The translations under genes were made by a program, and so were the position numbers. The notes under the pieces were generated by a model. The model ran no database searches, had not been told where the DNA came from, and saw nothing but the letters and a program-made list of their open reading frames with translations. From the NCBI RefSeq assembly GCF_903642205.1, contig NZ_CAHJWH010000008.1:1-43097 (forward strand): a stretch of DNA of 43,097 bases. The letters are read 5' to 3'. The first letter of the stretch is position 1, and every line of letters begins with the position of its first letter. The DNA is from Caulobacter sp. S45 (GTDB taxonomy: Bacteria > Pseudomonadota > Alphaproteobacteria > Caulobacterales > Caulobacteraceae). Shown piece after piece: positions 1-14,984 of this stretch.

Positions 1-224
1 TCCTCGTTCACCACCTTGAATCAACCCGAGCCGACCCCCGCAAGCCCTCTCGAGTCACGCCCTCGGAGAACCGGTATCAGTGGGCTTTTGAGTCAGGTTC
101 TAACGCGATCTCATCACGACCAGCTAAATTGCCGCTCTGACAAGCGCCCATGCATGGGCGATCCGTCTGGCAAAGGTTGACCGCCAAATCATCTTAACCG
201 GGTGCTCAGGTCTCCTTCAGCCGT

Positions 225-310
225 GTAGCGAGATGTATGGCCAATTTCCACCCTCGCTACCGTTCAGAAGGTCAGCTCTGCGGCAGGATACCTCAGCCGC
301 AGCGAACGGT
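225..310. repeat. Cluster of nested inverted repeats
   Basis: Three perfect inverted repeats are packed here: GTAGCGAG (225-232) with CTCGCTAC (253-260), ACCGTTC (259-265) with GAACGGT (304-310), and CTGCGGC (278-284) with GCCGCAG (296-302), the last nested inside the second. They lie 70 to 160 bases downstream of the stop of the minus-strand TIR-like gene, so they could be a terminator region, a structured RNA or a recombination site. Nothing else was recognised in positions 1-381, and no convincing gene is visible there. Confidence 0.45.
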
Positions 311-381
311 GAGTTTCCGGCCGAAGATCAGCGCGGAAGAACGACCCATGTCGGACATCCGTGCCTACCCCTTCGCGGCTT

Positions 382-999
382 TCAGACTGCCAGTGCTCCC
401 AGCCAATCTCGCATCGCCACAATCAGCTCTCTGACGGGCTGCTTCTCGATTTCGGCGGGCGACCAGCGAGCTGCCGTCAGGCGTAGAAAGTTCGCCGCGT
501 TGAAATCAGTAAATCTAGCCCAGATCAGAGATGGAGGAATTACATCACCGGTCATGAACTGGGCAAGCCAGTTTCTTACCAGAACGGGAACTTGAGATGG
601 ATCATTATTGTGAGGCTCAACATCACTTGCGTTTAGGTCAGACAGCGCCTTCTTCAACTCGTGGGCGTCGTCCTCAAGAATCAAAATGCGCTTAGCATCC
701 CAAGGTGGCCCCTTGTACATTCGACAAGCATAATCAATCCCCAACTCGAATGGCATGTTGAGGCGATAGTATTCGCCGACTGATGTGGCTTGCAGCCTCG
801 AAAGGTCGTGGATTCCGAATCGACTTTCTTCAATAAGCTCTACGATTTTTTCGATCCGCACTTCCGCGCCATCAGCGCGTTCTGACGCAATCCTCGGCTC
901 GTAGCCAAGCGCTAGAATAGAGAACAGAAGTGGACGCATCATATCAAGGTAGCCCGGATCGAATGGGCAATTTATGAATACGTTGCGCTCGAAGGCCAA
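382..999 (-). CDS. TIR-like (predicted nucleotide-binding) protein
   Basis: A 205-residue protein with the conserved opening NVFINCPFD (6-14), a GYEPRIASE segment (32-40), an EESRFGIHDLSR segment (58-68) and NMPFELG (81-87). I recognise this as the widespread hypothetical family often found next to a DUF2188 protein; the strand/helix order resembles a TIR or flavodoxin-like fold. Glu85 of MPFELG sits where TIR NADases carry their catalytic Glu, but that is inference. The start is TTG at 999, three bases after the stop of the upstream DUF2188 gene, so the two are probably translated together. No transmembrane segment is visible. An immune or effector role is plausible but unproven. Confidence 0.72.
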   Translation of the reverse strand: MAFERNVFINCPFDPGYLDMMRPLLFSILALGYEPRIASERADGAEVRIEKIVELIEESRFGIHDLSRLQATSVGEYYRLNMPFELGIDYACRMYKGPPWDAKRILILEDDAHELKKALSDLNASDVEPHNNDPSQVPVLVRNWLAQFMTGDVIPPSLIWARFTDFNAANFLRLTAARWSPAEIEKQPVRELIVAMRDWLGALAV

Positions 1000-1002
1000 G
1001 GC

Positions 1003-1209
1003 CTACTTGTTGTACGTCTTATGGGATTGGATCATCCCATTAGCACCATGAACGAAAATATCGGCCCGATCTTTCTGCGCATGATCTTTGCCGTACTTTT
1101 CAGCCTCCATCTTTGTCTCAAACGTCTTAGACGCGCGCGCCGCACCTTGCTTGCGCACACTCCAGCCGCCCGAAGTGCTGGGCACGACATGTCGTGTGTT
1201 CTTTGCCAC
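1003..1209 (-). CDS. DUF2188 domain protein
   Basis: A 68-residue protein that begins at GTG 1209 with GGAGG four bases upstream. The sequence VAKNTRHVVP, GGWSVRKQGA, KTFETKMEA and IFVHGANGMIQSHKTY fits the small DUF2188 family over its whole length. A longer reading frame upstream has no family match, which supports the GTG start. It is the first gene of a tight two-gene unit with the TIR-like protein. DUF2188 proteins have no established biochemical function; a partner or regulator of the adjacent TIR-like protein is inference from the arrangement. Confidence 0.78.
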   Translation of the reverse strand: MAKNTRHVVPSTSGGWSVRKQGAARASKTFETKMEAEKYGKDHAQKDRADIFVHGANGMIQSHKTYNK

Positions 1210-1513
1210 CGGGCCTCCACGCAGTACGCGCGATCCCACAAATCCGCCAGCGCTCGAAGGACAATGTGCGTCGAGCGAAGCCCTCCTGCAAGCCGGGTTC
1301 ACTTGCGTTCCAGGAAAAACTTACAGGGTGCATCCTGCCCTCACAACCACCTTTGCCGCTTGGACAAACCCCAGCCCTTGTAAGGTGGCTCAGGCCACCG
1401 GCCGAGACCCACCCTTCGCCCGCATTCGGAGCGTCCGCTCCTAGGGCGAAAAGGCTGGGCGGGAGGTGCCGAAGGGTGAGTTTCTGGAGCCGCGCTCATA
1501 CGTGCTCGCGACC
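1210..1513. other. Gene-free stretch with a degenerate extragenic repeat copy
   Basis: No reading frame here looks like a protein. Positions 1393-1448 hold GGCCACCGGCCGAG followed by CCCGCATTCGGAGCGTCCGCT. A diverged copy of the same block lies at 2339-2405. The GCGTCCGCT(T/C)C-type core resembles short extragenic repeats common in alphaproteobacteria. Confidence 0.4.
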
Positions 1514-1674
1514 GAGGCCGTGTAAAAACGCGTTGGTGGACGTCGTAGGGCGCGGGTTTAAGGATCAGATCTCGCCTTCCATGCGCGACAGGCTTGATTT
1601 CGGTGTTTTCAGCGCAACCAGGACTTTCATCCGAGACGCCCCAAAAGGCCCATTCGGAGTTTTTACACAGCCTG
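1514..1674. mobile_element. MITE-like element or relic insertion sequence with terminal inverted repeats
   Basis: AGGCCGTGTAAAAAC (1515-1529) and GTTTTTACACAGCCT (1659-1673) form an inverted repeat with one mismatch; the inner 10 bases are perfect. The roughly 160-base interior encodes no protein. The ends resemble those of full insertion sequences, so this is either a non-autonomous miniature element or an internal-deletion derivative. I could not see a clear target duplication next to either end. Confidence 0.5.
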
Positions 1675-1717
1675 GACCCGTTGCGGACCCTCGGGCTCCG
1701 CCGTAGCTTCCTCTATC

Positions 1718-1984
1718 ATGTCGGCCGAACCGCTACCTCGCATCTTCTTCGACACGAACGAGGGCTCCCACGATGGGGGTTACTGGCTGATCCTGGACCG
1801 TTCCCGGGCGGATTTGAGGGCGCTAGGCCCCGCGCTCCGAGACGGGCAGGAGGTCCTTATTTGGATGCCAGATGAACTCGAAATGTTGGCGAAGCTGCGC
1901 TTCGAGAACGTCGATGACCCTTGGGGGCCTCGCTGGGTGGCCGACCCGATACCTGGCACGATGACATACCTGGATCGGGCTTAA
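1718..1984 (+). CDS. Hypothetical protein, small, soluble
   Basis: An 88-residue protein starting at ATG 1718. It has a protein-like composition with the segments RIFFDTNEGSHDGGYWL, GQEVLIWMPDELEM and DPWGPRWVADP. No signal peptide, membrane helix or known motif was recognised. The stop lies six bases before a second ATG, so it is probably translated together with the next gene. It looks like a conserved hypothetical protein, but I cannot assign a family. Confidence 0.55.
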   Translation: MSAEPLPRIFFDTNEGSHDGGYWLILDRSRADLRALGPALRDGQEVLIWMPDELEMLAKLRFENVDDPWGPRWVADPIPGTMTYLDRA

Positions 1985-1989
1985 TCATC

Positions 1990-2286
1990 ATGCCGGAGGA
2001 AGTAGAAGGGTGGGTAGAGCCAGACACTATTCTGGTTGCGCTCGTTCACTTTCGTTCGTCATCCCAGAGCGCGATCAAAGGTCCGCTTCGAACAGTCATG
2101 AGGTGTCCCTGCTTCCCCGATGACCAACCTGGGACCGGAGGCTTCTCGGCTGTGTTCGGCTTTGAAGGAGATGTTTGGCCTGGAGAACAAGCTAAAGAGA
2201 TTTTGCAGTTCCTGAGTCGGAACGCGGTAGAAACACTCAGTCGTTCAGATGACTTCTACCTGGGAAAGCGTGGATACGTCGGGTGA
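1990..2286 (+). CDS. Hypothetical protein, coupled to the preceding gene
   Basis: A 98-residue frame from ATG 1990, five bases after the preceding stop. The composition is protein-like (VEPDTILVALVHFRSS, then GFEGDVWPGEQAKEILQFL). Third-position GC is lower than in the core genes of this window, fitting acquired DNA. No family was recognised. An in-frame start at 1921 would overlap the preceding gene and gives an unlikely N-terminus, so 1990 is preferred. No strong ribosome-binding site is visible, which fits translational coupling. Confidence 0.45.
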   Translation: MPEEVEGWVEPDTILVALVHFRSSSQSAIKGPLRTVMRCPCFPDDQPGTGGFSAVFGFEGDVWPGEQAKEILQFLSRNAVETLSRSDDFYLGKRGYVG

Positions 2287-2338
2287 GCTCGTATCCTACG
2301 TGACGAGCCCGTCCTCCGCCTGCGTAAGGGATGGGCTC

Positions 2339-2500
2339 GGCCACCGGCCTGAGGCTAAAGGTTTACCTTTAACCCGCATCGAGGGCGTCCGCTTCCGGGC
2401 TGCGACGCTGGTGTCAGAAGGAACGACGATTTGCTGGAGCAAGCCACGCCTGCGCTTTCGACCCGCTGCGGAAGTTCGGGAGGTCCGCTTTTGGGCTGCA
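2339..2500. repeat. Diverged extragenic repeat copies
   Basis: GGCCACCGGCCTGAG (2339-2353) followed by CCCGCATCGAGGGCGTCCGCT is a diverged copy of the block at 1393-1448. A further GTCCGCTTTTGGGCTG unit lies at 2483-2498. The two main copies flank the small gene pair 1718-2286 in the same orientation. No gene is visible between 2287 and the insertion sequence at 2535. Confidence 0.4.
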
Positions 2501-2603
2501 GACGGGCGCACCCGTTTCCATGTCCCCCGCCTAGGTCCTGTTGACATAGTGGATTCCAGCGGGGCTCGAACTCTGATTCAAGGCTTCCTTTTGGAGGCTG
2601 GCC

Positions 2604-3035
2604 TTGGCGCGGGGCGATCTGACGGAGCGGGAGTGGGCGATCATCGGGGCGCTGCTGCCGCCTGAACGTGGGCGCAAAGCGCGGCCGGCGCACGACAACC
2701 GCTTGTTCCTGAACGGGATGCTGTACGTGTTGCGGGTCGGCTGCCCCTGGCGCGACATGCACGAGCGTTACGGCAAGTGGAACTCGGTCTATGTGCGGTT
2801 CCGGCGCTGGGCGCAGCAGGGCGTCTGGGACGCGGTGCTGGAGACGCTGGTCGAGCTTGGGCTCACCGACGACTGGAAGCACATGATCGACAGCACCACC
2901 ATCCGCGGCCACAGTCAGGCCGCCGGCGCTAAAGGGGGACCTGCAAGGAAGGCTTTGGTCGAAGCCGCGGCGGCTTTACGAGCAAGATCCACGCCCGTGC
3001 AGACGGTCAGGGCCGCCCTCTTGGCTTCGTCCTGA
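2604..3035 (+). CDS. IS5-family transposase, frame A (N-terminal part)
   Basis: Starts at TTG 2604 with GGAGG at 2593-2597. The DUF4096-like opening ARGDLTEREWAIIGALLPP leads to the first DDE aspartate in MIDSTTIRGHSQAAGAKGG. After the AAAGGGGG run the zero frame continues with low-complexity Ala/Arg sequence to a stop at 3035, so the useful part of frame A ends near 2938. The rest of the enzyme is read after a -1 slip. Frame A alone may be a short regulatory product. Confidence 0.9.
   Translation: MARGDLTEREWAIIGALLPPERGRKARPAHDNRLFLNGMLYVLRVGCPWRDMHERYGKWNSVYVRFRRWAQQGVWDAVLETLVELGLTDDWKHMIDSTTIRGHSQAAGAKGGPARKALVEAAAALRARSTPVQTVRAALLASS
2931..2938 (+). promoter_or_regulatory. -1 ribosomal frameshift site (AAAGGGGG)
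   Basis: The zero-frame codons are GCT AAA GGG GGA. The -1 frame opens immediately after a TAA at 2930-2932 and gives the expected continuation GTCKEGFGRSRGGFTSKIHA. The fused product reads AKGG-TCKEGF, as in full-length IS427-type transposases. Slippage on the A3G5 run is inferred from this continuity. Confidence 0.82.
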
Positions 3036-3385
3036 CGGGCGGCGAGGTCTCCGACCATAAGGCCGTGGGTGAACTCTTCGCGCTCGCGGTCAAGAAGCCG
3101 AGGATGATGATGGCCGACAAAGGTTATGATGGCGACAACGTCCGGATCGCCCTGCTTATGAAGGGCGTGCTTCCTGTTATTCCGCCAAAGAGCAACCGTA
3201 GAGAGCAGATCGCCTGCGACTTCCACGCCTACAAAGACCGCAACCGCATCGAGCGCATGTTCAACCGCCTGAAGCAGGCGCGTCGCATCGCCACCCGCTA
3301 CGACAAGACCGCCATATCCTTCCTCGGCTTCCTCAACATCGCTGGCTCACGCCTGTGGCTGAAGCACTATGTCAGCAGGACCTAG
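2933..3385 (+). CDS. IS5-family transposase, frame B (catalytic C-terminal part)
   Basis: This -1 frame carries the second DDE aspartate (MMADKGYDGD) and the final Glu block (RNRIERMFNRLKQARRIA), so together with frame A the catalytic triad is complete. It has no good start of its own and is expected as the second half of a frameshift fusion. The stop TAG occupies 3383-3385 and lies within the CTAG target duplication, outside the inverted repeat: the element has no stop of its own and takes one from the target. Confidence 0.88.
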   Translation, partial: RGTCKEGFGRSRGGFTSKIHARADGQGRPLGFVLTGGEVSDHKAVGELFALAVKKPRMMMADKGYDGDNVRIALLMKGVLPVIPPKSNRREQIACDFHAYKDRNRIERMFNRLKQARRIATRYDKTAISFLGFLNIAGSRLWLKHYVSRT

Positions 3386-3794
3386 CTCAGAGTCTCGCGC
3401 GCCTGGGAGATCTCTCCGTCGTTTCGGGCCTGTTGCTGCCCGCCCGTTCCCTTCCACCCGAGTGCTTTCCTGCGGTTCCGCTCGGCCTGTCCGTCCGGCC
3501 TGTAGGGTGATGTAGTTGGCCAGGAGCGGAAAGGCTGTCGGCACTCACACTCGGTCAGCGCCACTTGCCGCTCCCGCCTCCCGCCGGTCCCTAATCGGTT
3601 TGCTTGACGCGCTGGATCGTAGGCAATCGGTCCTCCTGCAGGGGCTACGCCTACCGACGACCGTCGCAGCCCCTCCGCTCTCCAAATGAAAATTTTTCCG
3701 ACGCGCTTGCCGCATTGGCAGAGGCTGGGCCACAGTGGTGTCGGACTGACAAGGGAACGCCTTCGATCATGCTTCTGACGCGCCGACGGCCTCT
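3386..3794. other. Gene-free stretch
   Basis: A gap of about 400 bases between the insertion sequence and the PspA/YbjQ cassette. Short frames on both strands have skewed Arg/Pro composition and no recognisable domain. The promoter of the downstream four-gene unit should lie in its right half, but no convincing consensus could be picked out. Confidence 0.4.
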
Positions 3795-4178
3795 ATGAGC
3801 GTTGAGCTTGATCCCTTCGACCTGGACGCCGCAGGGGTCCGCCGGGCTCTAAATGACTTTCGGGCCTTTATGGAGGCGCTGGCGGCGCGGTTGCAAGGCG
3901 CCCTGCCTGACCGGGTGACTGTAGAACGGCGGCGCGATGGCCTGCTCTCTCGCACCAGCCACGTGCACGAGATCGCGCTCAGAAGCGACGGGGCCGAGTA
4001 CCGGCTGCGCTTCGACAAGGGGACGCTCACGGCGACAAAGGCCAAGGCAGTGCGCGGCGTGACGATCAGCACCAGCGAGGAGCCCGTGCCGCAGTGGCTG
4101 GGCGAGGTGCGCGCGGAAGTGGCCGCCCTGGCCGGGACCATGGGCTCGGCCAGCGACGTGCTGCACGACTTCCTGTGA
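3795..4178 (+). CDS. Hypothetical protein, first gene of the PspA/YbjQ cassette
   Basis: A 127-residue acidic, soluble protein starting at ATG 3795. An N-terminal helical part (about 10-45) is followed by a beta-rich middle (HVHEIALRSDGAEYRLRFDKG, about 56-76) and a helical tail ending ASDVLHDFL. No signal peptide or membrane helix. It precedes the YbjQ-like gene by 11 bases, with GAGGA overlapping its stop region serving as the next ribosome-binding site. Family unknown to me; the tight spacing says it belongs to the same unit and may be a cytoplasmic partner of the YbjQ-like or PspA-like proteins. Confidence 0.75.
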   Translation: MSVELDPFDLDAAGVRRALNDFRAFMEALAARLQGALPDRVTVERRRDGLLSRTSHVHEIALRSDGAEYRLRFDKGTLTATKAKAVRGVTISTSEEPVPQWLGEVRAEVAALAGTMGSASDVLHDFL

Positions 4179-4189
4179 GGACCCGTTAG

Positions 4190-5098
4190 ATGCCGACGAC
4201 GCTGCAGGGACCGAGCGGGGGCCCGTTGCCGACCGAAGCTCAAGCGGCTGCACGGGGAGCGGCTTGGGAGAGCGCGCTGGCGGGTGGCCAACTGCCAGAG
4301 TTCGTGGTGGAGCGGCTGCAGGCCGCGGCCCAGGGCCGTCTGCCCTGGCTGTCGACCATGACGCCGGCGGAGCTTCGTCTGGCGCGCAGTCACGGGATCA
4401 AGCCGATTGCAACCGTGAGCGGCACCTGCTGGTACCAGTACGGACGCAGCTGGACGGAGGGCCACGCGGCGGGGTGGCGCGCCGCGCTGCAGCGCCTGCG
4501 CGCCGAGGCCATCGTCTGCGGCGCCAACGCTGTAGTCGACGTGAAGATGAGGACCGTCCACACCGACCTGGGCGCCAGCATGGACTACACCCTGCTTGGT
4601 ACCGCGGTGCGCATGGAGGGGCTGCCCGCAAGCCCCGATCCCGTGGTCGCCACCGTCCCGGCGCTGGAGTTCGTGCGCCTGCTCGAGATGGGGATTGTGC
4701 CTGTCGGTATCGCTGTGGGCGCACGTTACCAGTGGCTGACGGGCTATCTGGGTTACAATGACTTAAGCACTCGACCCCTCCCAACGCTTGGGGAATTCTG
4801 GGAGTCAGTCCGCCGACACGCGCACGCCGAACTGCGTGCGGACGCGGCTAGGCAGGGGACTGGCGTACTTGCGCACACCCAATTCAGCCAACTTCTTCGA
4901 CAGGAAGTGGACAAACAACCGCCCAATTATCTTGGCCGTCATATCGTCATCGGCACGGTAGTGGAGACCCGCCGGGGCGACGGTGTACCCCACCATCTTC
5001 AGACCGTGGTGGACATGCGCGACGACGTCTCCCCGCTTCTGAACAAGGCTCGCGGTCCCGCCGCCAACAACCTGCACGACAAAGAGGGAGGCATCTGA
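4190..5098 (+). CDS. YbjQ-like (heavy-metal-binding-domain family) protein 1
   Basis: A 302-residue protein with two diverged YbjQ/DUF74-type modules. The first (about 66-144) shows GIKPIATVSGTCWYQYGRSW, then ANAVVDVKM and LGTAVRM. The second (about 155-290) shows EMGIVPVGIAVGARYQW and ends HIVIGTVVETRR...VVDMRDD. The N-terminal 60 residues are a helical leader. There is no signal peptide, so it is probably cytoplasmic or membrane-associated. The stop overlaps the next gene's start (TGATG at 5096-5100), showing translational coupling. YbjQ proteins form pentameric beta-rich assemblies; the metal-binding label is historical and unproven. Confidence 0.82.
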   Translation: MPTTLQGPSGGPLPTEAQAAARGAAWESALAGGQLPEFVVERLQAAAQGRLPWLSTMTPAELRLARSHGIKPIATVSGTCWYQYGRSWTEGHAAGWRAALQRLRAEAIVCGANAVVDVKMRTVHTDLGASMDYTLLGTAVRMEGLPASPDPVVATVPALEFVRLLEMGIVPVGIAVGARYQWLTGYLGYNDLSTRPLPTLGEFWESVRRHAHAELRADAARQGTGVLAHTQFSQLLRQEVDKQPPNYLGRHIVIGTVVETRRGDGVPHHLQTVVDMRDDVSPLLNKARGPAANNLHDKEGGI

Positions 5099-5922
5099 TG
5101 GCCGACACCCAAGACCCCATCCCCCAGCACGCCCTTGAGCGGATGAAGGGCCTGCGCAGCCAAAACAACCGCGGCGGCGTCTTCACCTCCGACTTCTCGG
5201 TCAACGAGTTCCTGCTGGTGCGGAAGGCGGGCTTCGAGCCGGTTGGCCTATGCGTGGGCTCCTGCATCTACCACGTAGGCGTCCAGTACGGCGGTTGGTC
5301 CAAGAACCAGGAAATGACCGTGCTCTCCCAGGCCATGTACCAGGCCCGCGAGCACGCCATGACCCGCATGCGCGAGGAGGCCCGCGACATGGGGGCTGAC
5401 GGCGTAGTGGGCGTGCGGTTAGAAGTGAAGCGGCTGGAGTGGGACCAGAACATCCTGGAGTTCGTGGCCATCGGCACCGGCGTGGTCCACGCCGCCGGTC
5501 ATACCGCCTTCAAGGGGCCAGGCGGAGCGCCCTTCACCTCCGACCTGTCGGGCCAGGACTTCTGGACCCTGCTGCACGCAGGCTACCGCCCGCTGGAAAT
5601 GGTGATGGGCTCTTGCGTCTATCACGTGGCGCACCGAGGCCTGTTCAAGACCATGGGCTCGGTCGGCCAGAACGTGGAGCTGACCAACTACTCTCAGGCG
5701 CTCTACGACGCGCGCGAGATCGCCATGGAGCGCATGCAACACGAGGCGATCCGGGTGCAGGCTGAAGGCGTGGTCGGCATGGACCTGCACGAGGGCAGCC
5801 ACAACTGGCAGCCGCACGTGATCGAGTTCTTCGCCGTCGGCACGGCGGTGACCCCCATCGCCGCCGAGCTCGCCGCTTCCACCATCCCCGACCCGCAGCT
5901 GGTGCTGTCGGTGAACAGCTGA
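5098..5922 (+). CDS. YbjQ-like protein 2, tandem domains
   Basis: A 274-residue protein made of two clear YbjQ-type repeats. Repeat one (about 28-133) contains DFSVNEFLLVRKAGFEPVG, GSCIYHVG and LEFVAIGTGV. Repeat two (about 145-255) contains DLSGQDFWTLLHAGYRPLE, GSCVYHVA and IEFFAVGTAV. Each carries a long helix of the QA(M/L)Y.AREHAM type between its strands. The conserved Cys and His of GSC(I/V)YHV are present in both. It overlaps the preceding gene by one base and lies 13 bases before the PspA-like gene. The internal duplication suggests a ring or platform that stacks with its paralogue; that is inference. Confidence 0.86.
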   Translation: MADTQDPIPQHALERMKGLRSQNNRGGVFTSDFSVNEFLLVRKAGFEPVGLCVGSCIYHVGVQYGGWSKNQEMTVLSQAMYQAREHAMTRMREEARDMGADGVVGVRLEVKRLEWDQNILEFVAIGTGVVHAAGHTAFKGPGGAPFTSDLSGQDFWTLLHAGYRPLEMVMGSCVYHVAHRGLFKTMGSVGQNVELTNYSQALYDAREIAMERMQHEAIRVQAEGVVGMDLHEGSHNWQPHVIEFFAVGTAVTPIAAELAASTIPDPQLVLSVNS

Positions 5923-5935
5923 GCGGAGCAGACCC

Positions 5936-6688
5936 ATGAGCATCCTCGGCCGCGTCGCCGACCTCTTCCAGTCCAAGACCAACCGTCTGTTGGACGCCAT
6001 CGAGGACCCCAACGAGGCGCTCGACCTCTCCTACGAGAAGATGCTGACAGGCCTTCAGGAGACCCGGCGTCACCTGGCCGACGTGGTGGCCCAGCAGAAG
6101 TCGCTGGAGCGCCAGATCACCACCCAGGACAAGGAGCTGGACGGCTGCGAGGCCGACGCCCGGCTGGCGGTGCAGGCCAACCGCGACGATCTCGCCCGGG
6201 CCGCGCTCGTGCACCGCCAGCGGGTGCTGGACACCCGCGCGACCCTGCAGGAGGCGCTCGACGCCATCCGGCCGCAGGTGGACAAGCTGGCCGGCTACCA
6301 GGGCCAGCTGGAGGACCGCATCGAGCGCTTCCGCACCCAGAAGGACACCATGAAGGCGAGCTACGCCGCAGCCCAGGCCCAGGTGAAGGTCACCCAGAGC
6401 CTGACCGGCGTTGGCGGCCGCATGGAGAACGTCGGCCGCACCCTGGAGCGGGCTGAGGGCAAGATGCTGGGGGCCCGCGACAAGGCCGACGCGCTCGGCT
6501 CCATGCTGGAGCAGGGCCTGATCAACGACCCACTCGATAAGCGCTCGAGCACCGACAAGGAGCTGGCGCACCTGCGCGACACCCACGCGGTAGACGACCA
6601 GCTCGTTCTGCTTAAAGCGCAAATGGGCGTCCCCGCTCTTAACGCGCCCTCAACCGCCGCCCTACCGCCAACGGATCCACCGGCTTAG
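5936..6688 (+). CDS. pspA: PspA/IM30 (ESCRT-III-like) family protein
   Basis: A 250-residue coiled-coil protein starting MSILGRVADLFQSKTNRLLD, the amphipathic N-terminus typical of PspA/Vipp1. The family's early segment EDPNEALDLSYEKML is followed by almost uninterrupted helix to about 225 and a Pro-rich tail. PspA-type proteins coat and remodel the inner membrane under envelope stress. No pspF, pspB or pspC is nearby; the partners here are two YbjQ-like proteins and an unknown 127-residue protein in the same operon. The symbol marks the family rather than orthology to enterobacterial pspA. Confidence 0.88.
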   Translation: MSILGRVADLFQSKTNRLLDAIEDPNEALDLSYEKMLTGLQETRRHLADVVAQQKSLERQITTQDKELDGCEADARLAVQANRDDLARAALVHRQRVLDTRATLQEALDAIRPQVDKLAGYQGQLEDRIERFRTQKDTMKASYAAAQAQVKVTQSLTGVGGRMENVGRTLERAEGKMLGARDKADALGSMLEQGLINDPLDKRSSTDKELAHLRDTHAVDDQLVLLKAQMGVPALNAPSTAALPPTDPPA

Positions 6689-6881
6689 TCAGCGGGTTCT
6701 CCTCGCCTGTGTCGGACGGCGAAAACGGGATGGCTCGCTGAAAATCGAGCATGCGCTCATCCGCGATTCGCGCCCAGAACGGACCTTCACCTTCCTCCAG
6801 AAACAGGACTCTCACCTGGGCATCTGGGAAGCAGCCGTAGGCCCTGCAGAGTCGCATCTTGGGGGTGAAGCGGACATACAT
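6639..6881 (-). CDS. Possible small hypothetical protein
   Basis: An 80-residue frame starting at ATG 6881 and overlapping the 3' end of the PspA-like gene by about 50 bases on the opposite strand. It has a balanced composition (PDAQVRVLFLEEGEGPFWAR then LDFQRAIPFSPSD) unlike the shadow frames nearby. No motif was recognised and no strong ribosome-binding site is visible. It could be a small accessory gene or chance; expression data would decide. Confidence 0.35.
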   Translation of the reverse strand: MYVRFTPKMRLCRAYGCFPDAQVRVLFLEEGEGPFWARIADERMLDFQRAIPFSPSDTGEENPLTKPVDPLAVGRRLRAR

Positions 6882-7142
6882 TTAGGATCAGGGCCTCCCG
6901 GCGCGACGGTCCGACTCCTGATCTCCGGCACCTGCTGGGCGCCAGCCCGACATCAGCCCAGACCGGCCCTGATCAGATCGACGCCACCCGTCACCGACCC
7001 TAATGCCAAGTCGGGGTGACGTGACCCCGCCAGGGCCTCAGAATCGTTCGCAGCGTCCGCCGACTCCACCTCCGGTGTGCATGGACGTTCAGACCTGGAC
7101 ACGACCGCGGCCGCGGCTTACGGGGCTGCGCCCATCTCTAGG

Positions 7143-8525
7143 TCATGGCAGCAGGGCACCCCCAATGGCTTCCCCGACCGCGACCGCGATCCCCGCGTCC
7201 CTAGCGACGCGCTCGGGACGTCCCTGGGCGCGGCGCTGCGCGTCCGCGATGCGGGCGGCGGGAGTGCGCCCATCCACGGGCGTCAGGCGCCACCGGCGCC
7301 CATAGCCCCGGATGACGTCAAGGTCGCCGGACTTGAGGATACCATTATGGCCCGCGGGAGAAGTGATGAAGCGCTGCCAACCGACGCAGTCGTTGGCCGG
7401 TTGGTAGTTGAGCAGTCCCTTGTCAACGGACATGCTGTCGATGAGCGACCGCATGTAGCGGATCTGGCCTGTCTCTTCATCGCCATCATGATGGACGAAC
7501 GCCATGAGGCTCAGTTTGTCCAGGATGTCGGCGATGTTAGGACACTCCACCTTGGGCCGGCAGTCCACATAGGGCGCCTTGGCCGACATGACGCGGTAGA
7601 GGGTGCGGACGTAGTCGAGGTAGGGCCCCGTGCGCTCGCTGATGAGGTCCGGATCATGGCCCCCGAAGAGGTGGCCATAGCCGTTGCCGTACATGACCGC
7701 GCCGTTGCAGTGCGCCCAGGCGTCTCCGAGCGCGTGCAGGCTGATGCCGAACTCCAGCGGGTCGCCGGCGGCCATGGCGAAGCCGATCCTACGCCGGCGC
7801 TCCTGCGCGACGGGCGCGCCGGTAAGGCAGTGCAGCCCTTCGACGACATCCCGGCACACCTCGTAATCCTGGGGCCGCACGCCGGTGTCGGCCTTGGTGG
7901 TCAGGAACGCGCCGGCGGCGACCGCTGGAACGTCCTTGCCGATCAGGGTCTCAGAGATCGCCGCCTGGGTGATGGCGTCCAGCTCGCTGACTAGGTCGGG
8001 CACTTGGCTGAGGAAGGCCATGCGCTGGGCGTAGTACTCGGGCGCTCCCCACACCAGGGCGGTGAGGTAGGTCGTGTAGTAGTGGCCGGCCCGGCTCCAG
8101 TGCAGGCACCCGGGTGCGGCAGCCAATTGGACCTGGGGCCGCCCACCCGGCGCCAGCAGCTCAGCCGCGACGTCGTCCGCTTCCCGCTCCAGGAGCGCGA
8201 CGGCGACGGGGCGGCCCAGCGTGGCGAACTGCCCGATGTGGGCCGCCTCGTGCGCGAGGATGCGCAGGCCGAGCCCATCCGCATCCCAGAAATCGTTCGC
8301 CGACACGGGCGGGCGGAGGTGGACGACGCCGGGCTCGCTCCAGCCCGCCGCGACCGCGCCAGGTGGGTGCAGGTGCAGCCGCGCAGCGTCCCAGGGCAGG
8401 CCGAGCCGCTCTAAGAAGCTCCCGAGCAGGGCGGCGATCTCCTTAGAAGTCACCGAGTCGGAGCCAGCGCCAGGGTGGGCTGTACTGCTCATCGCGCCGT
8501 GCAGCGAGCCCGCCGGTCGACCCAT
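7143..8525 (-). CDS. DUF4157-like putative zinc-site protein
   Basis: A 460-residue protein from ATG 8525, chosen because GGGAGGGCGTGAGG precedes it; an upstream in-frame start at 8606 is possible. Residues 90-98 read ILAHEAAHIGQ, the HExxH-type zinc motif of the DUF4157 domain, and a conserved downstream Glu lies in LEREADDVAAELL. The C-terminal half holds LHALGDAWAHC and AFVHHDGDE, resembling His-rich putative hydrolase folds of the DUF6765 kind. DUF4157 proteins often occur with contractile injection systems or polymorphic toxins, but no such genes are seen here. No signal peptide. Function unknown; peptidase activity is inferred only from the motif. Confidence 0.68.
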   Translation of the reverse strand: MGRPAGSLHGAMSSTAHPGAGSDSVTSKEIAALLGSFLERLGLPWDAARLHLHPPGAVAAGWSEPGVVHLRPPVSANDFWDADGLGLRILAHEAAHIGQFATLGRPVAVALLEREADDVAAELLAPGGRPQVQLAAAPGCLHWSRAGHYYTTYLTALVWGAPEYYAQRMAFLSQVPDLVSELDAITQAAISETLIGKDVPAVAAGAFLTTKADTGVRPQDYEVCRDVVEGLHCLTGAPVAQERRRRIGFAMAAGDPLEFGISLHALGDAWAHCNGAVMYGNGYGHLFGGHDPDLISERTGPYLDYVRTLYRVMSAKAPYVDCRPKVECPNIADILDKLSLMAFVHHDGDEETGQIRYMRSLIDSMSVDKGLLNYQPANDCVGWQRFITSPAGHNGILKSGDLDVIRGYGRRWRLTPVDGRTPAARIADAQRRAQGRPERVARDAGIAVAVGEAIGGALLP

Positions 8526-8730
8526 CCTCACGCCCTCCCTGGCGAGCTGAAGGATGATAGCTGCTCGACGTCCCAGCGTCGACTCGCCGGAACGGCTGGG
8601 GAGCATGTAAGAACTGCGGGCGCCTCACCTTCGCGGGCAAGCGGCGGGTGTTCACCTGAGCACGCCGGAACCGGGCTTACAGCCTGCTGTTCAGGGGCGG
8701 AGGTCTGGTGTGCGCACCTGGACGGTGTCG

Positions 8731-8963
8731 TCACAGGCCCGCTCGCGCCCAGAAGGCGTGCTTGGACCGGTGGCGGCGCTCCAGGTCGGCGGCGTACGCC
8801 TCGTGGTCCGGGTGGTCCTGCCAGTCCGTCACGGCGGCCGCTAGCGAAGCGGAGTCGCGTAGGTGGCGCGCGGCGTGCCGCAGCGGACCGATCGGACGTG
8901 GTCGAGCGAAGCGCGCCCGAAGCCGCCAAGAGACTTCTGCCGGAAAGACGACATGGCAGTAAG
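8731..8963 (-). pseudogene. Remnant of a DUF6880-like gene (C-terminal end only)
   Basis: Between an upstream TGA (8964-8966) and a TGA at 8731-8733 one minus frame reads LRHAARHLRDSASLAAAV, TDWQDHPDHEAY and AADLERRHRSKHAFWARAGL. This has the composition and closing pattern (H..Y...L...H.RK..FW) of the end of DUF6880-type proteins. No start codon with a ribosome-binding site and no N-terminal part exist, so this is a 5'-truncated relic. The family assignment is from memory of the motif and is tentative; the coding character itself is clear. Confidence 0.5.
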
Positions 8964-9115
8964 GTCATGCACGAACTGGAAACTGACACGCGACGTGGCT
9001 TGCAGCGCGGTCAACTACTAATGTCCTGAGGCAGGAGATCGGACGCATTGCTGTTGAACAGTTGATTGGACGGAGCGAAAGGGAAAATATTCGGTTGACG
9101 TACCGCACACCAGAT

Positions 9116-9358
9116 ATGGTAGGTCCGCATGGTGACAGGCCAGCGACGGGCGGTGCGTCTGAGGGCGCGCCGTCTTCGGTCGTGGTTACGCCGGAGATGG
9201 TCGCTGCGGGCATAGCGGCGTGGGGCTTGAATGATAAGTACGATCCTGATGAGATGGTCATGGAAATATTTGTCGCTATGATTTTGGCTTCTCCCCCTGT
9301 GAGAGGTGGTTCAAGCGATTATGAAACTCTGAACAGTGCGCCATTGCTGTCAGTTTAA
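9116..9358 (+). CDS. Small hypothetical protein, possible cargo gene
   Basis: An 80-residue frame from ATG 9116, just inside the left end of the IS1595-type element. The middle part VVVTPEMVAAGIAAWGLNDK followed by DEMVMEIFVAMI resembles a short helical motif seen in small alphaproteobacterial proteins (TPEM..AG...., then an acidic stretch and IF.AM). The last 80 bases overlap the opposite-strand MltR-like gene, so the end may be fortuitous. An in-frame TTG at 9062 lies outside the element and is not preferred. Confidence 0.4.
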   Translation: MVGPHGDRPATGGASEGAPSSVVVTPEMVAAGIAAWGLNDKYDPDEMVMEIFVAMILASPPVRGGSSDYETLNSAPLLSV

Positions 9359-9824
9359 AGCGTCCTTTTTCATCCACCCCGTAGGGAGGATCGGCCTTTA
9401 TCCTGATAATTCCTTCAGGTCCGACTAGGGGAATTCCTTTGTCTATAAAGTTGTTTGCATAGCGCATCTTATTACAAAAGTCAGATATAGGCTCATCGGA
9501 AAAGCTGTTGATGTGAATGTTATGAGCGAACCTGTTTCTTACGCGCGCAATGAGGATCAAATCGGCGTGTGAATCGGCGTCCACCACCCCTATCGCTTTG
9601 GACAGGTCTATCTTAACTCCGAACTCAGATAATCTGCCGTCCGAACCGAAAAGCTTGTTACTTAGCTTGGGGGTAAGCCCCGGAAGGTGAGTTTGGATAA
9701 CCTTTCCCCGATAGTCGTCAAGATATGCGGCGGTCACTATTACTCAAACTCTGTCGCTCTCGCCTTCATTAAAAAATGACTTGCCAAGGACTTGAAAATC
9801 GTTCGGATCAAAATTAACCGGCAT
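9276..9824 (-). pseudogene. MltR-like gene interrupted by a single in-frame TGA
   Basis: One continuous frame from ATG 9824 to TAG 9276 would give 182 residues, but codon 27 is TGA (9744-9746). Before it stands MPVNFDPNDFQVLGKSFF and ESDRV. After it the same frame continues VIVTAAYLDDYRGKV, then SEFGVKIDLSKAIGVV and IARVRNRFAHN, the motifs of the MltR (mannitol-operon repressor-like) family. Re-initiation at GTG 9737 would give a 153-residue protein lacking the first helix. GC is clearly lower than in the core genes. Possible explanations are a recent nonsense mutation, re-initiation, or a sequencing error. It lies between the ends of the IS1595-type element as cargo. Confidence 0.7.
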
Positions 9825-10068
9825 AGGTGATCGCCTTGTTAGAAGTGACCAGCCCGGAAGTCGAAGAAACTTCCGACCAGCGACGCGACGCCATGCTACT
9901 TAAGGCGCTACGCACCCCGCCTGAACGCCGCCCCAAGCGAGAGAGACAGCCTCGGGAGGGCGAGTCAAACCAGGGTGACAAGACCGCCGTTTGAGGGCAG
10001 GTTGAGACTGTCTCCGGGACTGTGACAGGAACCGGGGGCCGCATTACGCGCCCACAGGGTCCCCGCAT

Positions 10069-10689
10069 GTGTCGGGCGGCCCACGGAATACAACACCCCT
10101 CGTAAGCGCTCGGCTGATCACTGGGCATGGGAAATACGTGGGCGCGTATCCCTGTGTGCGCGTGTCACCCGCCTGGCTCCCGCCGGGCTACGCAGGGGCG
10201 TGGACATTGCAGCAGAGCGTTCAGACGCTGTTGGCGCGAGAGGGCGTCGCTAATGAGGCGTGCCGTGGAGGATCCGGCGACAATCCAGCTACACAAGTCG
10301 CGTGCGGAAAGCGGGATCGCCTAGACACAAAACTCCAGGCTAGGGGCTGGTGCTATGGCGAGAACGCGACATCCGGAGCAGACTCGGTATGGGCTCCCTG
10401 TGGCCATCCTGCTCAAATAACAAGCCAAACCGCTCAGGAGCCCGCGAATACCACAGCCGAGCCAATCAACCATACAGCCATTGGAGCGGGCGTTGGCATC
10501 GGCATTGCAATCGTACTGATGTATTTCGTTCCCACTATAGTTGCGTTCAGGAGGAAAGACCGTCAGCGGACGGCGATCTTTATCCTGAACCTATTTCTTG
10601 GGTGGACGCTAATCGGGTGGGTTGGCGCGTTGGTTTGGGCCTATATCAGGTCTTCCGCAGCGCCCTTATCTTCCGCACCTTCTGCTTAA
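10069..10689 (+). CDS. Superinfection-immunity-like membrane protein
   Basis: The C-terminal part has two predicted membrane helices: AIGAGVGIGIAIVLMYFVPT, then after FRRKDRQRT the second, IFILNLFLGWTLIGWVGALV. The block FVPTIVAFRRKDRQ...NLFLGWTLIGWVGAL matches the superinfection-immunity family (T4 Imm-like), whose members can block phage DNA entry at the membrane. The N-terminal half has a paired-Cys segment (NEACRGGSGDN...ACGKRDRLDTKL...GWCYGE) of lysozyme-inhibitor-like style. The start is uncertain: GTG 10069 or a later GTG near 10138. The stop shares the TTAA at 10686-10689 with the convergent transposase stop. It is cargo of the IS1595-type element. Confidence 0.68.
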   Translation: MSGGPRNTTPLVSARLITGHGKYVGAYPCVRVSPAWLPPGYAGAWTLQQSVQTLLAREGVANEACRGGSGDNPATQVACGKRDRLDTKLQARGWCYGENATSGADSVWAPCGHPAQITSQTAQEPANTTAEPINHTAIGAGVGIGIAIVLMYFVPTIVAFRRKDRQRTAIFILNLFLGWTLIGWVGALVWAYIRSSAAPLSSAPSA

Positions 10690-11636
10690 GCGTGCGCGGC
10701 TCCCTCAGGCTGTCGATAGGTAAGCCGCCTGCCCTTCGCACCGGCTAGCAGCGGCTCGGCGCGCTCCACATCGGCCAGCTTGCGGGTGCTCCAGCGGAAG
10801 TCGAACTCCACCAGATAGCGGTGCAGGTGCGCCTCGCTGATTGAATGGAAGGAGCCGTACACGCCGCGCTTCAAGATGGCGAAGTAGCTTTCTGCCGAGT
10901 TGGAATGGATGAAGCCATCGCCCCGGACGTACTCGCCCTTAGCGTGATCTGTGCTGCCGTGGCCCGCGTACTCGCCGCCGACGCCGAGATAAACAGTCGC
11001 GCCGTCCGTCATGAGGTGCGATTTACGGCTGGCGTTCGTCACCAGAACGTCGCGCACCGTTTTGGCGGTCACGTTGGCGACGTGGAAGGAGCGAGCCTCC
11101 CCGTCGCGGTCCACCAGCACCATGACGGGTTGCTTGGCATCGGCAGACAGATAGCGAGGCAGGCGCTTGTTGGAGTGCTTGTTCTTTTCTTTGCCGCCCA
11201 CGTAGGTCTCATCGGCTTCCACGGCCTTGCCCTCGCCGCCCATCGGGCCGCGCTCGCCCTTGGGGCACTCGCGCAGGCGATGGAACAAGAACCAGGCCGT
11301 CTCATAGTTCGTGCCCAGCATCCTTTGCAGTTGAAGGGCGCTCATCCCCTTTTTGCTGGCCGACATGAAGTGAGCCGCCAGAACCCACTTGTGCAGGGGC
11401 AGGTGCGAACGCTCCATAACCGTTCCAACGGTCACACTGAACGGCTTGCGGCAGTTCTTGCACTTGTAGACGCCGGGGCGGGTGCTCGCGCCTTGCAGCT
11501 TCGTGATCCGGTCGCCCATGACGCCACAGCGCGGGCACACCGCGCCTTGCGGCCACAGGAGTGCTTCGAGGTGCGCACGGGCGGCGGCGTCATCGTGGTA
11601 GATCGGATCGGCGAGGTTGGTTTTGCGAGCGGTCAT
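10686..11636 (-). CDS. IS1595-family transposase (ISXO2-like)
   Basis: A 316-residue protein. The N-terminal zinc-ribbon has CPRCG (about 34-38) and CKNCRKPFSVTVGTVMERS. The catalytic ISXO2-like domain holds VEADETYVGGKEKNK, a second Asp in LMTDGATVYLG, and HSNSAESYFAILKRGVYGSF with the final acidic residue. It is full-length for the family. The start ATG 11636 lies 43 bases inside the right terminal repeat. It appears intact, so the element may still be mobile and may act on related non-autonomous copies. Confidence 0.93.
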   Translation of the reverse strand: MTARKTNLADPIYHDDAAARAHLEALLWPQGAVCPRCGVMGDRITKLQGASTRPGVYKCKNCRKPFSVTVGTVMERSHLPLHKWVLAAHFMSASKKGMSALQLQRMLGTNYETAWFLFHRLRECPKGERGPMGGEGKAVEADETYVGGKEKNKHSNKRLPRYLSADAKQPVMVLVDRDGEARSFHVANVTAKTVRDVLVTNASRKSHLMTDGATVYLGVGGEYAGHGSTDHAKGEYVRGDGFIHSNSAESYFAILKRGVYGSFHSISEAHLHRYLVEFDFRWSTRKLADVERAEPLLAGAKGRRLTYRQPEGAAHA

Positions 11637-11700
11637 CGGATCGGCCTTTCAGTAAGGCCAATCTATATGCGGTAGCGTGGTACGTCAACCGGATAGTTCC

Positions 11701-11919
11701 CCCGATCAGTATCGGCGCGACGAACCCGAACTGCTTGATCGAACTTTTCAGCAAGTCGATCTGGCGCGGCGGATGCTTGCGCGCGTTGGCCGGGTTGGCG
11801 ATCAGCGCAGCCACCGGCCGCATGCGGATATGCAGGTCCGGCTGGTGGGTCTGGATGTTTCGCTTCGTCATCTGGCTGCTGCCGTCGAGGAACAGCCGGA
11901 GTGTCGCGCGCTTCGCCAA
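11701..11919 (-). pseudogene. ParB-like nuclease-domain gene, truncated by the IS1595-type element
   Basis: The frame reads MTKRNIQTHQPDLHIRMRPV, then NPANARKHPPRQIDLLKSSI and QFGFVAPILI, the start of a ParB N-terminal domain as found in phage-type ParB/DNA-methylase proteins. After PILIG the frame enters the terminal repeat of the element and continues as non-homologous sequence to about 11590. The expected next motif (AGHGR) is missing. Translation may start at TTG 11919 or ATG 11871. It follows the preceding minus-strand gene by eight bases, so it was the second gene of an operon. Confidence 0.75.
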
Positions 11920-11927
11920 GTCGCGGT

Positions 11928-12563
11928 TTAGGGACTTTGTACCTGACTGCCGGGGGCGAGCTTCGCCTTGACCGACCGAGCCTCTTTCAGCTCCTGAAGA
12001 TAGGTGCAGATCAGCGTTTCATGTACGCCGGGCTCGATCGTCTGCATGACAGCGTAAACGAAGCGATCGCACGCCCAGTGTAGCCGCCCGTTGTAGTCAC
12101 CTCTGTCAGTCGGATTGTGGGTGAACGTCTTCTTGGTAACGCGCTCGTAGAGATCCACGAGCTGCTCCAAGGTCCGGCCGAGATTGCCATCCTTCAAACG
12201 ACCTCGCTTCGTGCTGAGCGAGGCGTCACAGGCGGCGGCGAGGAGCGACCAGTCTGCGTCGTCCACGTCGATGCCGGTGTAAGGCTCGATGCTGGAGCCG
12301 CTCGCGCGCAGCTGGCACATCAATCTGAGTCCCGGCCCACTGGCCAGCCCGGCAATTTCGCCTTGAAGGGCGACTAGGGCTTCTTTGAGATTCGCCATGG
12401 TGGGTGTGATCGCACGGGCATCAGTCGCAATCTCTCTAAGTTGTCTGTTGCCGGCCGCCGTTCCCAAGGCAAGCTTTTGCTGATCACGCCAAGTGAGATG
12501 ATCCTGGCATATTCCGATAAGATAGAACCTATAATCAGACGAGTTGAGAACCTGCTTCATCAC
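11928..12563 (-). CDS. Hypothetical protein upstream of the ParB-like gene
   Basis: A 211-residue soluble protein starting MMKQVLNSSDYRFYLIGICQ, with a helical middle and a C-terminal part containing NLGRTLEQLVDLYERVTKKT and RLHWACDRFVYAVMQTIEP. No known motif, signal peptide or membrane segment was found. It is probably co-transcribed with the truncated ParB-like gene eight bases downstream. The neighbourhood suggests a phage or integrative-element origin. Function unknown. Confidence 0.6.
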   Translation of the reverse strand: MMKQVLNSSDYRFYLIGICQDHLTWRDQQKLALGTAAGNRQLREIATDARAITPTMANLKEALVALQGEIAGLASGPGLRLMCQLRASGSSIEPYTGIDVDDADWSLLAAACDASLSTKRGRLKDGNLGRTLEQLVDLYERVTKKTFTHNPTDRGDYNGRLHWACDRFVYAVMQTIEPGVHETLICTYLQELKEARSVKAKLAPGSQVQSP

Positions 12564-12730
12564 CTTGGTTCAAAGTTTTGTGAACGGCTGTAGAACTTCC
12601 CACACATCTTCGGTGCGATGCTGGAGCATCGCCTGCTCACCACTCCCAGTGGCTTGGGACATCGCGCGACATGGGTCTTTCCGCTGCAGCGGGGGCCGAC
12701 AAACGCTGCGTCCGGAGCGTCTGTCTGGAG

Positions 12731-12919
12731 ATGACGATACCCGCCACGCCAAGGCAAGCTGCGCTGGACACCCTCCTCGAGCTTGTCACCTCGCGCCTGG
12801 AAGCTGCGCTGGATCTCACCGCCACGGCCGCCCGCGAAGAGGGCCTCGCCGAACTCGCCCGCCTCTGCGCCGACCTGCAGGTGCTTACTGCCGCGGCGAT
12901 CCTCGTGCGGGAGCGCTGA
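12731..12919 (+). CDS. Small helical protein of the DUF2924/recombinase module
   Basis: A 62-residue, Ala/Leu-rich, probably all-helical protein, MTIPATPRQAALDTLLELVT onwards, ending AAAILVRER. It lies two bases before the DUF2924 gene. Similar short frames precede DUF2924 genes in other alphaproteobacterial integrative modules, which supports its reality. The start could also be the in-frame ATG at 12671, but that N-terminus is Cys/Arg-rich and unlikely. Confidence 0.55.
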   Translation: MTIPATPRQAALDTLLELVTSRLEAALDLTATAAREEGLAELARLCADLQVLTAAAILVRER

Positions 12920-12921
12920 TC

Positions 12922-13344
12922 ATGGCCAATTCGCACCGCTCCCAATTGCATGATGAGCTGAACGCCCTCGTCGGGCTCGACCTGCGCGAACTTTGCCAGG
13001 TCTGGGCTGGGCGCTACGGGGCGCCTCCGCCGCTGCGCTCCCCGGGCTTCCTGCGCCACCTCCTCGCATGGCGCATCCAGTGCGAAGCCGAAGGCGGGCT
13101 CGACAAGCAGGTGCTGAAGGTGATGACCGCTTCTGCGGCGCCGAAGACGAAGGCGTCGGCAGTCCGAGAGGGCTCGCGGCTTACGCGTGAGTGGCAGGGC
13201 CGCGCCTATGAGGTGGAGGCCGTCGAAGGCGGCTTCCTGTGTGACGGCGCGAGCTACGCCAGCCTGTCCGAAGTCGCCCGGGCGATTACCGGCGTTCGCT
13301 GGAACGGCCCGCGGTTCTTCGGCCTGCGCGACGGAGCGAAGTGA
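12922..13344 (+). CDS. DUF2924 domain protein
   Basis: A 140-residue protein from ATG 12922. It carries the typical DUF2924 elements: an N-terminal helical part with LCQVWAGRYGAPPP and LRHLLAWRIQ, then LTREWQGRAYEVEAVEGGF, YASLSEVARAITGVRWNGPRFFGLR. The family is found immediately upstream of large serine recombinases in alphaproteobacterial genomic islands and is presumed to help recombination or DNA binding, without direct proof. It overlaps the downstream recombinase frame by four bases (GTGA). Confidence 0.88.
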   Translation: MANSHRSQLHDELNALVGLDLRELCQVWAGRYGAPPPLRSPGFLRHLLAWRIQCEAEGGLDKQVLKVMTASAAPKTKASAVREGSRLTREWQGRAYEVEAVEGGFLCDGASYASLSEVARAITGVRWNGPRFFGLRDGAK

Positions 13345-14642: not shown

Positions 14643-14677
14643 GCCGGCAGCGTCACGCCACGCGCGCGCAGAAAAAG

Positions 14678-14715
14678 TTGCCCCTGTTATTGCCCCTGTT
14701 ATCATGAATAACAGG
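14678..14715. repeat. Tandem 12-base repeat plus hairpin near the tRNA-Ser
   Basis: TTGCCCCTGTTA occurs twice in tandem (14678-14689 and 14690-14701). The second copy then forms a perfect 8-base hairpin, CCTGTTAT (14695-14702) with ATAACAGG (14708-14715), around a 5-base loop. It lies between the truncated recombinase and the 3' end of tRNA-Ser, a place where integrase arm sites or an att region would be expected. Confidence 0.5.
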
Positions 14716-14894
14716 CGCAAACCGGAGTCGGAAAGTCGGCCCCGGAGACAGGCGTCGAAACGGGCTCGCCAAGGCGACCTTTTTGGATCGAATTTCAGGG
14801 TTCAGAGCACCGCTTCGAATGCGGTCAACGGCTTACAGGCGCTCAGCAAGCGCGGCTAACGTAGGCCTCGGAGTAAGTTGGGGGCCTGACTAGT

Positions 14895-14984
14895 TGGCGG
14901 TGGGAGAGGGATTCGAACCCTCGATACGGTTTCCCGTATACACACTTTCCAGGCGTGCGCCTTCAACCACTCGGCCACCCCACC
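14895..14984 (-). tRNA. tRNA-Ser (anticodon GGA)
   Basis: A 90-base tRNA including an encoded CCA. The acceptor GGTGGGG (from 14984) pairs with TCCCACC before discriminator G and CCA (14895-14897). D-arm TGGCCGAGTGGTTGAAGGC, anticodon GGA (14948-14950) in CTGGAAA, a long class II variable arm (GTATACGGGAAACCGTATC) and GGTTCGAATCC T-arm are all present. The 3' end faces the accessory region on the left, making it a likely integration target. Confidence 0.97.

Follow-up and report, generated by a model that had tools for sequence, protein, structure and literature searches.

Two different double-YbjQ proteins encoded in a 43,097-nucleotide stretch of DNA from Caulobacter sp. S45 (contig NZ_CAHJWH010000008.1; hereafter the window, meaning the whole stretch analysed) were found to belong to a gene pair that stays together in five phyla, mostly with a third gene for a small protein. 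In the window, the pair is part of a tight same-strand unit of four open reading frames (ORFs), labelled S (127 aa), Y1 (302 aa), Y2 (274 aa), and PspA (250 aa); as originally predicted, successive frames are spaced by 11, -1, and 13 bases (Table 1). Since the PspA-bearing full set was limited to one proteobacterial clade, gene content indicates that the unit is a YbjQ-pair cassette with an added PspA rather than a PspA system assisted by YbjQ proteins. The emphasis would accordingly shift to the YbjQ pair with S, PspA or another protein, TelA, being a lineage-specific partner.

Conservation of the YbjQ pair across phyla

Contigs representing one genome per species were scanned with Y2, which yielded 130 relatives; the best 80 were analysed, so the counts given here favour window-like sequences. 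Grouped by record titles, these loci comprised 29 from Actinomycetota, 24 from Bacillota (mostly Sulfobacillus-like), 14 from Proteobacteria, 12 from Cyanobacteria, and 1 from Chloroflexi. Y1 and Y2 were located on the same strand and in the same cluster at all 80 loci, their stops at most 2.1 kb apart. S, which was detected at homologous loci by means of a profile built over several iterations (E 1.4e-23 to 2.1e-49), was present in the cluster at 52 loci, and PspA at 10 loci plus the window, all in a single proteobacterial clade (10 of the 14 Proteobacteria). The conservation of the gene set implied by the original prediction was, thus, borne out in full for Y1 and Y2 and for the most part for S, whereas the complete set with PspA was found only at those 10 loci and in the window.

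Eight order patterns were observed overall. With S, these were S-Y1-Y2 (20 loci), Y1-Y2-S (18), Y1-S-Y2 (2), and a divergent S accompanying Y1-Y2 (2); without S, Y2-Y1 (22) and Y1-Y2 (6); and with PspA, S-Y1-Y2-PspA (4) and Y2-PspA-S-Y1 (6). The clustering survives this reshuffling across phyla, which argues for a shared function and not for an inherited order. Because homologues occur in further phyla, where the genes also remain together, the cassette is far beyond what chance would produce. Two Streptomyces plasmids carried Y1-Y2-S. A divergent S was sought in 29 S-less loci (L003, described below, included), and the best match reached only E 0.83.

Searches with S as the query gave matches in 3 of 291 cyanobacterial-phylum genomes (the centre genome included), 9 of 396 actinobacterial-phylum genomes (the centre streptomycete and one doubtful match included), and 2 of 398 genomes belonging to the phylum of the window (its own genome included). 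After three own or centre genomes and one match taken as spurious had been set aside, 8 of the 10 new S genes adjoined a Y pair. The match in genome G786 (E 2.7e-4, within a long frame) was regarded as spurious but was retained for one Fisher test of the three reported below. Two S genes (L157:2288-2680 and L158:7793-8179) had no YbjQ neighbours within the stretch examined, and S may therefore also occur in another setting. In the actinobacterial loci L164 and L165, a third double-YbjQ-type gene was observed beside S, Y2, and Y1.

No further cluster found at five or more loci kept one place across phyla, as judged from neighbours that were not individually annotated, and wider synteny was confined to Sulfobacillus-type loci. 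In a metagenome-assembled genome of Chloroflexi, the gene immediately upstream of Y1 encoded a fusion of FHA and a PrsW-type protease (L073:5688-7229).

The sporadic distribution of S (2/398, 9/396, and 3/291 genomes by phylum), the occurrence of the unit on 3 of 72,556 plasmid records, and its island-like surroundings in the window would all suit a mobile defence module, whether anti-phage or of another type. This explanation was judged highly improbable, given that S, Y1, and Y2 had no counterpart in PADLOC and PspA matched long coiled-coil proteins there only weakly, that none of 33 pattern-matching stretches on viral contigs encoded a relative, and that the Sulfobacillus-type loci show wider synteny.

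The YbjQ modules and the S protein

In Pfam searches, Y2 matched YbjQ_1 (PF01906) over two stretches and above the cut-off (7.6e-25, 87.9 bits), and Y1 matched it over one stretch (4.7e-6, 27.6 bits vs a cut-off of 23). Profile-profile comparison, with module limits that we drew ourselves, related all four modules to one another (Y1 module 1 to module 2, 6.7e-22; Y2 module 1 to module 2, 1.2e-45; cross pairs, 4.1e-30 to 8.2e-42), and S as the negative control gave a probability of 0.1-0.2. The second half of Y1, missed by Pfam, is a YbjQ module in this comparison, and the two proteins, therefore, carry four modules in total, in agreement with the duplication predicted for both.

Among the 80 loci, identity to the window Y2 was 67-86% for proteobacterial homologues, 59% for L045, and 55-61% for the others. 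The alignments of Y1 and Y2 were made without L003 and L017, and ORFs longer than 420 aa were trimmed to their last 330 residues. Mean column identity of Y2 over 42 sequences was 66%, with 71 invariant positions that include His59, Cys173, His176, and His240. Such residues could bind metal, and S-Y1-Y2 might then be a metal- or metalloid-handling complex for which TelA and PspA are collateral, dealing with envelope damage. This is favoured by the annotation of TelA (toxic anion resistance), the Pfam label of YbjQ ('putative heavy-metal-binding'), the acidophile names of many hosts (Sulfobacillus, Acidiphilium, and Actinospica acidithermotolerans, from titles only), and a possible cation-diffusion transporter ORF, judged by eye, downstream of the cassette in L073. 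We consider this explanation quite unlikely: the Pfam label is itself tentative, a structural role could account for the invariant residues, streptomycetes and cyanobacteria make up many of the hosts, and no neighbour family, as far as could be judged without annotating each neighbour, holds a constant place across phyla.

The structural model of Y2 (mean predicted local distance difference test (pLDDT) 83.4, predicted TM-score (pTM) 0.81) showed a helix-strand pattern that occurs twice. Foldseek matched it to 1y2i (E 8.4e-5, probability 1.00, TM by target length 0.59) and to 1vr4 (2.5e-4), and Y2 is, thus, predicted to share the fold of solved YbjQ proteins. Comparison by VIA gave Z 5.7-6.4 to 1y2i, 3qkb, and 1vr4, values that are weak taken alone, and Z 6.7 to 4qvr over 154 residues across both modules; no match attained Z 8. 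The cassette modules, thus, have their sequence family and fold in common with the YbjQ / DUF74 / UPF0145 proteins (1y2i, 1vr4, 2gtc, and 3qkb). However, the solved chains consist of one module of about 90-133 residues, unlike the cassette with two modules per protein and two such proteins per unit. The second module of Y2 also bore a weak likeness, below the trusted level, to the periplasmic domain of RcsF (2y1b and 6t1w; Z 5.3, 81 residues, 3.9 Å), which differs in being an outer-membrane lipoprotein.

None of Pfam, NCBIfam, PADLOC, and PHROGs gave a convincing match to S, in line with the prediction of a first protein of no recognised family. When 55 members were compared with Pfam, DUF5073 (0.0022 in 10), Cut8 (0.006 in 1), and EAD2 (0.0081 in 3) were encountered and judged to be chance matches. 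The AlphaFold2 model of S, built from 52 sequences, was of high confidence (mean pLDDT 91.1, pTM 0.78) and consisted of a long helix, five strands, and a long helix. Sequence comparison with solved structures gave E 0.41 or worse only, and Foldseek found no solved structure for the model at E <= 0.001. In a second structure comparison, a CBF-beta chain ranked first (Z 6.7, 80 residues, 2.6 Å), and four frataxin-family entries matched weakly (Z 5.7-5.8, root-mean-square deviation 3.1-4.6, 79-90 residues); both resemblances of the model are too weak for a claim of kinship. S as a relative of PspAA (profile comparison probability 0.6) or of the CesT/Tir-like chaperone YjfI/DUF2170 (hhalign probability 0.4 vs a single YjfI sequence) found no support.

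No clear transmembrane segment was found in the four cassette proteins by a crude hydropathy scan, for which 1.6 is the customary threshold; the maximum of Y2 was 1.56, at a strand in its model.

PspA and TelA as possible alternative partners

The fourth protein proved to be a PspA/IM30 protein as predicted (PF04012, 6.1e-28, 98.4 bits vs 33.9, residues 2-229), and its sequence matched solved Vipp1/PspA chains from residue 2 onward. Its score for the classical PspA equivalog TIGR02977 was 96.4 bits vs a cut-off of 242.95. In a midpoint-rooted tree, the cassette PspAs formed one clade (100/99) nested in a subfamily (98/98) whose unlinked members came from Sulfobacillus, Solirubrobacterales, Streptomyces, other actinobacteria, and Chloroflexi. 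A profile of the cassette PspAs matched these unlinked subfamily copies at E 3.2e-53 to 7.3e-64, and other proteobacterial and cyanobacterial copies at 1.5e-7 to 2.5e-29. At 18 of 21 loci, the unlinked subfamily PspA was adjoined by, fused to, or overlapped by PspAA, whose identity was confirmed by PF22743 in the two loci scanned. PspAA (PF22743) was found in none of the 15 proteobacterial cassette genomes searched, which included the window's own genome; G083, the genome of L045, was left out. The subfamily PspA being of the PspAA-paired type and PspAA being absent from these genomes, the proteobacterial cassette, therefore, took up PspA without PspAA. L045, titled Proteobacteria, has PspAA beside an unlinked PspA (L111) in its genome, and its Y2 groups with that of the Chloroflexi locus L073.

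The partner of the cassette changes within the Proteobacteria. In a Y2 tree of 32 rows with midpoint root, all proteobacterial Y2s except L045 formed one clade of 15 rows (100/100), in which L033 (Burkholderia sp.) and L156 (of the window's class) grouped together (98/95). At both loci, TelA (PF05816) is encoded directly upstream of S-Y1-Y2 (L033:5806-7431 and L156:4627-6174), and PspA is absent from the cluster; there is a 4-base overlap between the genes for TelA and S in L156. TelA was detected in 3 of the 45 cassette genomes searched (46 less G083), those of L033 and L156 among them, and was not found in the window's own genome. L021 and L024, the closest Y2 relatives of the window among the 80 loci, had neither PspA nor TelA in the cluster. 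The genomes of L021, L024, and L033 encode PspA elsewhere. The PspA label required 3 changes on the Y2 tree, of which 2 were forced by well-supported branches, and the simplest reading of the tree would be one PspA gain followed by TelA replacement in one branch and loss in another.

Of the 80 loci, 44, chosen by us, were traced to their genomes, from which 40 PspA loci were retrieved. A PspA-family gene was present in all 55 cassette or S genomes tested (44/44 chosen genomes, the window's own, and 10/10 found via S), compared with 84 of 150 genomes of the window's order (own included) and 9 of 14 named controls, these lineages being unmatched. Cyanobacteria, for instance, commonly carry Vipp1, and the 44/44 count is, therefore, not proof of a tie. 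An unlinked PspA of the cassette subfamily occurred in 5 of the 6 actinobacterial S+Y genomes found via the S query, as it did in Sulfobacillus, Chloroflexi, and many actinobacterial cassette genomes. A better controlled comparison covered 395 actinobacterial genomes (centre excluded), in which PspAA was present in 4 of 8 S-bearing genomes vs 39 of 387 others (Fisher p 0.006, uncorrected for kinship); p was 0.003 without the doubtful match and 0.019 when only S genes with Y neighbours were counted.

These observations bear on whether S-Y1-Y2 is an independent system that PspA joined once as a neighbour, by chance or for co-expression only. The restriction of the linkage to one proteobacterial clade speaks for it, as do L021 and L024, which lack PspA in the cluster in spite of having the Y2s closest to that of the window. 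However, PspA is linked in two gene orders, TelA replaces it in one branch, every one of the 55 genomes tested has a PspA-family gene, and PspAA is enriched with S in Actinomycetota, so that we regard this explanation as somewhat unlikely. The functional tie to PspA that had been predicted is supported by the two gene orders, by TelA standing in, and by the 55 genomes, even though physical linkage is found at only 10 of the 80 loci.

A putative membrane-associated module and its surroundings

Based on these results, we tentatively propose, as a possibility that falls short of being probable, that the cassette products form a membrane-associated stress module in the cytoplasm, in which a YbjQ scaffold and the adaptor S act with PspA- or TelA-type proteins. 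Y1 and Y2 were never apart in the analysed set and, therefore, probably form one assembly, in which the four YbjQ modules would make up a mixed YbjQ-type ring or scaffold. A ring is likely because the solved YbjQ entries 1y2i, 2gtc, and 1vr4 contain five chains each. S, which has an adaptor-like size and fold in its model, would be a small subunit of this scaffold. TelA, like PspA, is a long helical protein, and because the two seem to stand in for each other, their slot suggests an effector controlled by the scaffold, which may position, cap, or regulate PspA here and TelA in relatives. PspA proteins form membrane-remodelling assemblies (PMC12358876). The target would be the stressed inner membrane; in Actinomycetota and Sulfobacillus, the partner is probably a PspA encoded elsewhere. 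A bolder version, in which S-Y1-Y2 is a self-standing cytoplasmic machine of at least five phyla, built as a mixed tandem-YbjQ ring, whose adaptor S recruits interchangeable PspA or TelA to stressed membranes, was considered unlikely.

Several observations weigh against the proposed scaffold. S is missing at 28 of the 80 loci (22 of these among the 24 Bacillota) and PspA is missing from the cluster at 70, so both are dispensable. Two-module proteins cannot evenly fill a five-fold ring. Part of the second module of Y1 (around residues 152-176) is of borderline hydrophobicity (1.63-1.66). The linkage of PspA may go back to one event and have been inherited or transferred en bloc, because the cassette PspAs form one clade, and the tree that defines this clade carried a tool warning of long branches and uneven composition. 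Moreover, 6 of the 40 PspA loci retrieved gave no match to the cassette PspA profile, the best PspAs of the genomes of actinobacterial L117, L122, L123, and L132 did not match it, cyanobacterial PspAs matched it weakly, and one of the six actinobacterial S+Y genomes had no PspA of the cassette subfamily. The Fisher tests take no account of relatedness, and the positive genomes behind them number 6-8.

Two known systems resemble the cassette in part. The PspA-PspAA dyad (PMC11237479) has a PspA of the same subfamily as the cassette PspA, but the cassette occurs without PspAA in the 15 proteobacterial genomes searched, and S is unrelated to PspAA by profile. The CesT/Tir-PspA dyad yjfI-yjfJ of E. 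coli (PMC11237479) likewise has a small protein beside a PspA homologue (YjfI, 133 aa; S, 127 aa); in contrast, no relation between S and YjfI was detected, and YbjQ proteins take the place of the partners yjfK, yjfL, yjfM, and yjfC. YbjQ had zero occurrences in the main text of two phage shock protein (PSP) surveys (PMC11237479 and PMC9239133), and TelA had zero in the main text of the former, supplements not being covered in either case. Within the literature searched, YbjQ and PspA appeared together in one proteomics study only (PMC6414554), YbjQ was in no title or abstract among the matches for the name, and no description of the S-Y1-Y2 cassette was found, subscription journals being mostly outside the coverage. 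The cassette would also add a partner set unmentioned in the main text of two large PSP neighbourhood surveys.

Although YbjQ proteins occur widely and structures of them have been solved, theirs is an orphan fold. The cassette connects this fold with a bacterial family of membrane-remodelling proteins and is a system small enough to be tested directly. If the bolder version above were true, YbjQ proteins would gain a function, and PspA, a relative of ESCRT-III, and TelA would be alternative clients of one scaffold.

Table 1. Features of the cassette and of the adjacent island-like segment in the window.
Feature	Position	Strand	Basis or remark
S, 127 aa	3795-4178	+	Family with no convincing counterpart in Pfam, NCBIfam, PADLOC, or PHROGs; five strands predicted, with a helix on either side
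Y1, double-YbjQ protein, 302 aa	4190-5098	+	Pfam YbjQ_1 4.7e-6; module profile comparison; second module degenerate
Y1 module 1, residues 48-146	4331-4627	+	Profile comparison
Y1 module 2, residues 147-268	4628-4993	+	Profile comparison; missed by Pfam alone
Y2, double-YbjQ protein, 274 aa	5098-5922	+	Two YbjQ_1 stretches; strongly conserved
Y2 module 1, residues 24-136	5167-5505	+	Pfam, profile comparison, model
Y2 module 2, residues 142-258	5521-5871	+	Cys173, His176, and His240 invariant in 42 aligned sequences
PspA/IM30-family protein, 250 aa	5936-6688	+	PspA_IM30; subfamily elsewhere paired with PspAA
IS4/5-type transposase pieces	2604-3385	+	Upstream of cassette; mobile surroundings, outside the unit
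IS1595 transposase	10686-11636	-	Island-like segment
Serine recombinase	13341-14642		Only the end of the Resolvase (catalytic) domain matched
tRNA-Ser(gga)	14895-14984	-	Island-like segment

In the window's own genome, the cassette PspA was the single PspA-family gene, and every Pfam YbjQ match fell within the cassette. A 29-residue stretch with 66% identity to Y2 residues 164-192 was observed on another contig (C67; L012:1501-1587); S, Y1, and PspA were not found around it, and it is perhaps the remnant of a second cassette. Y2 matches were obtained in 9 of 60 related genomes with a best E of 4.7e-13, and the cassette, therefore, seems to be missing from these relatives. In G015, a genome related to that of the window, a single protein of 395 aa (L003, 1423-2610) matched the Y2 profile (2.3e-70), and neither S nor PspA was found in the stretch examined.

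Of the classical Psp regulators, which the original prediction had reported absent, PspF, PspB, and PspC were not encountered among the named neighbours, no search aimed at these families having been made. Neither a sigma-70-like promoter nor a + strand terminator was detected in 3386-7142, as chance would predict. The surroundings look like an acquired island: positions 1-14984 contain the IS4/5 pieces, and GC content is lower in parts of the first 13 kb. Downstream of the cassette, a 487-aa protein (7143-8606, - strand) had a weak match to DUF6765 (1.5e-5, slightly under the cut-off). At 382-1302 (- strand), a 205-aa protein without Pfam match adjoins a DUF2188 protein, and the two may form a separate two-gene unit.

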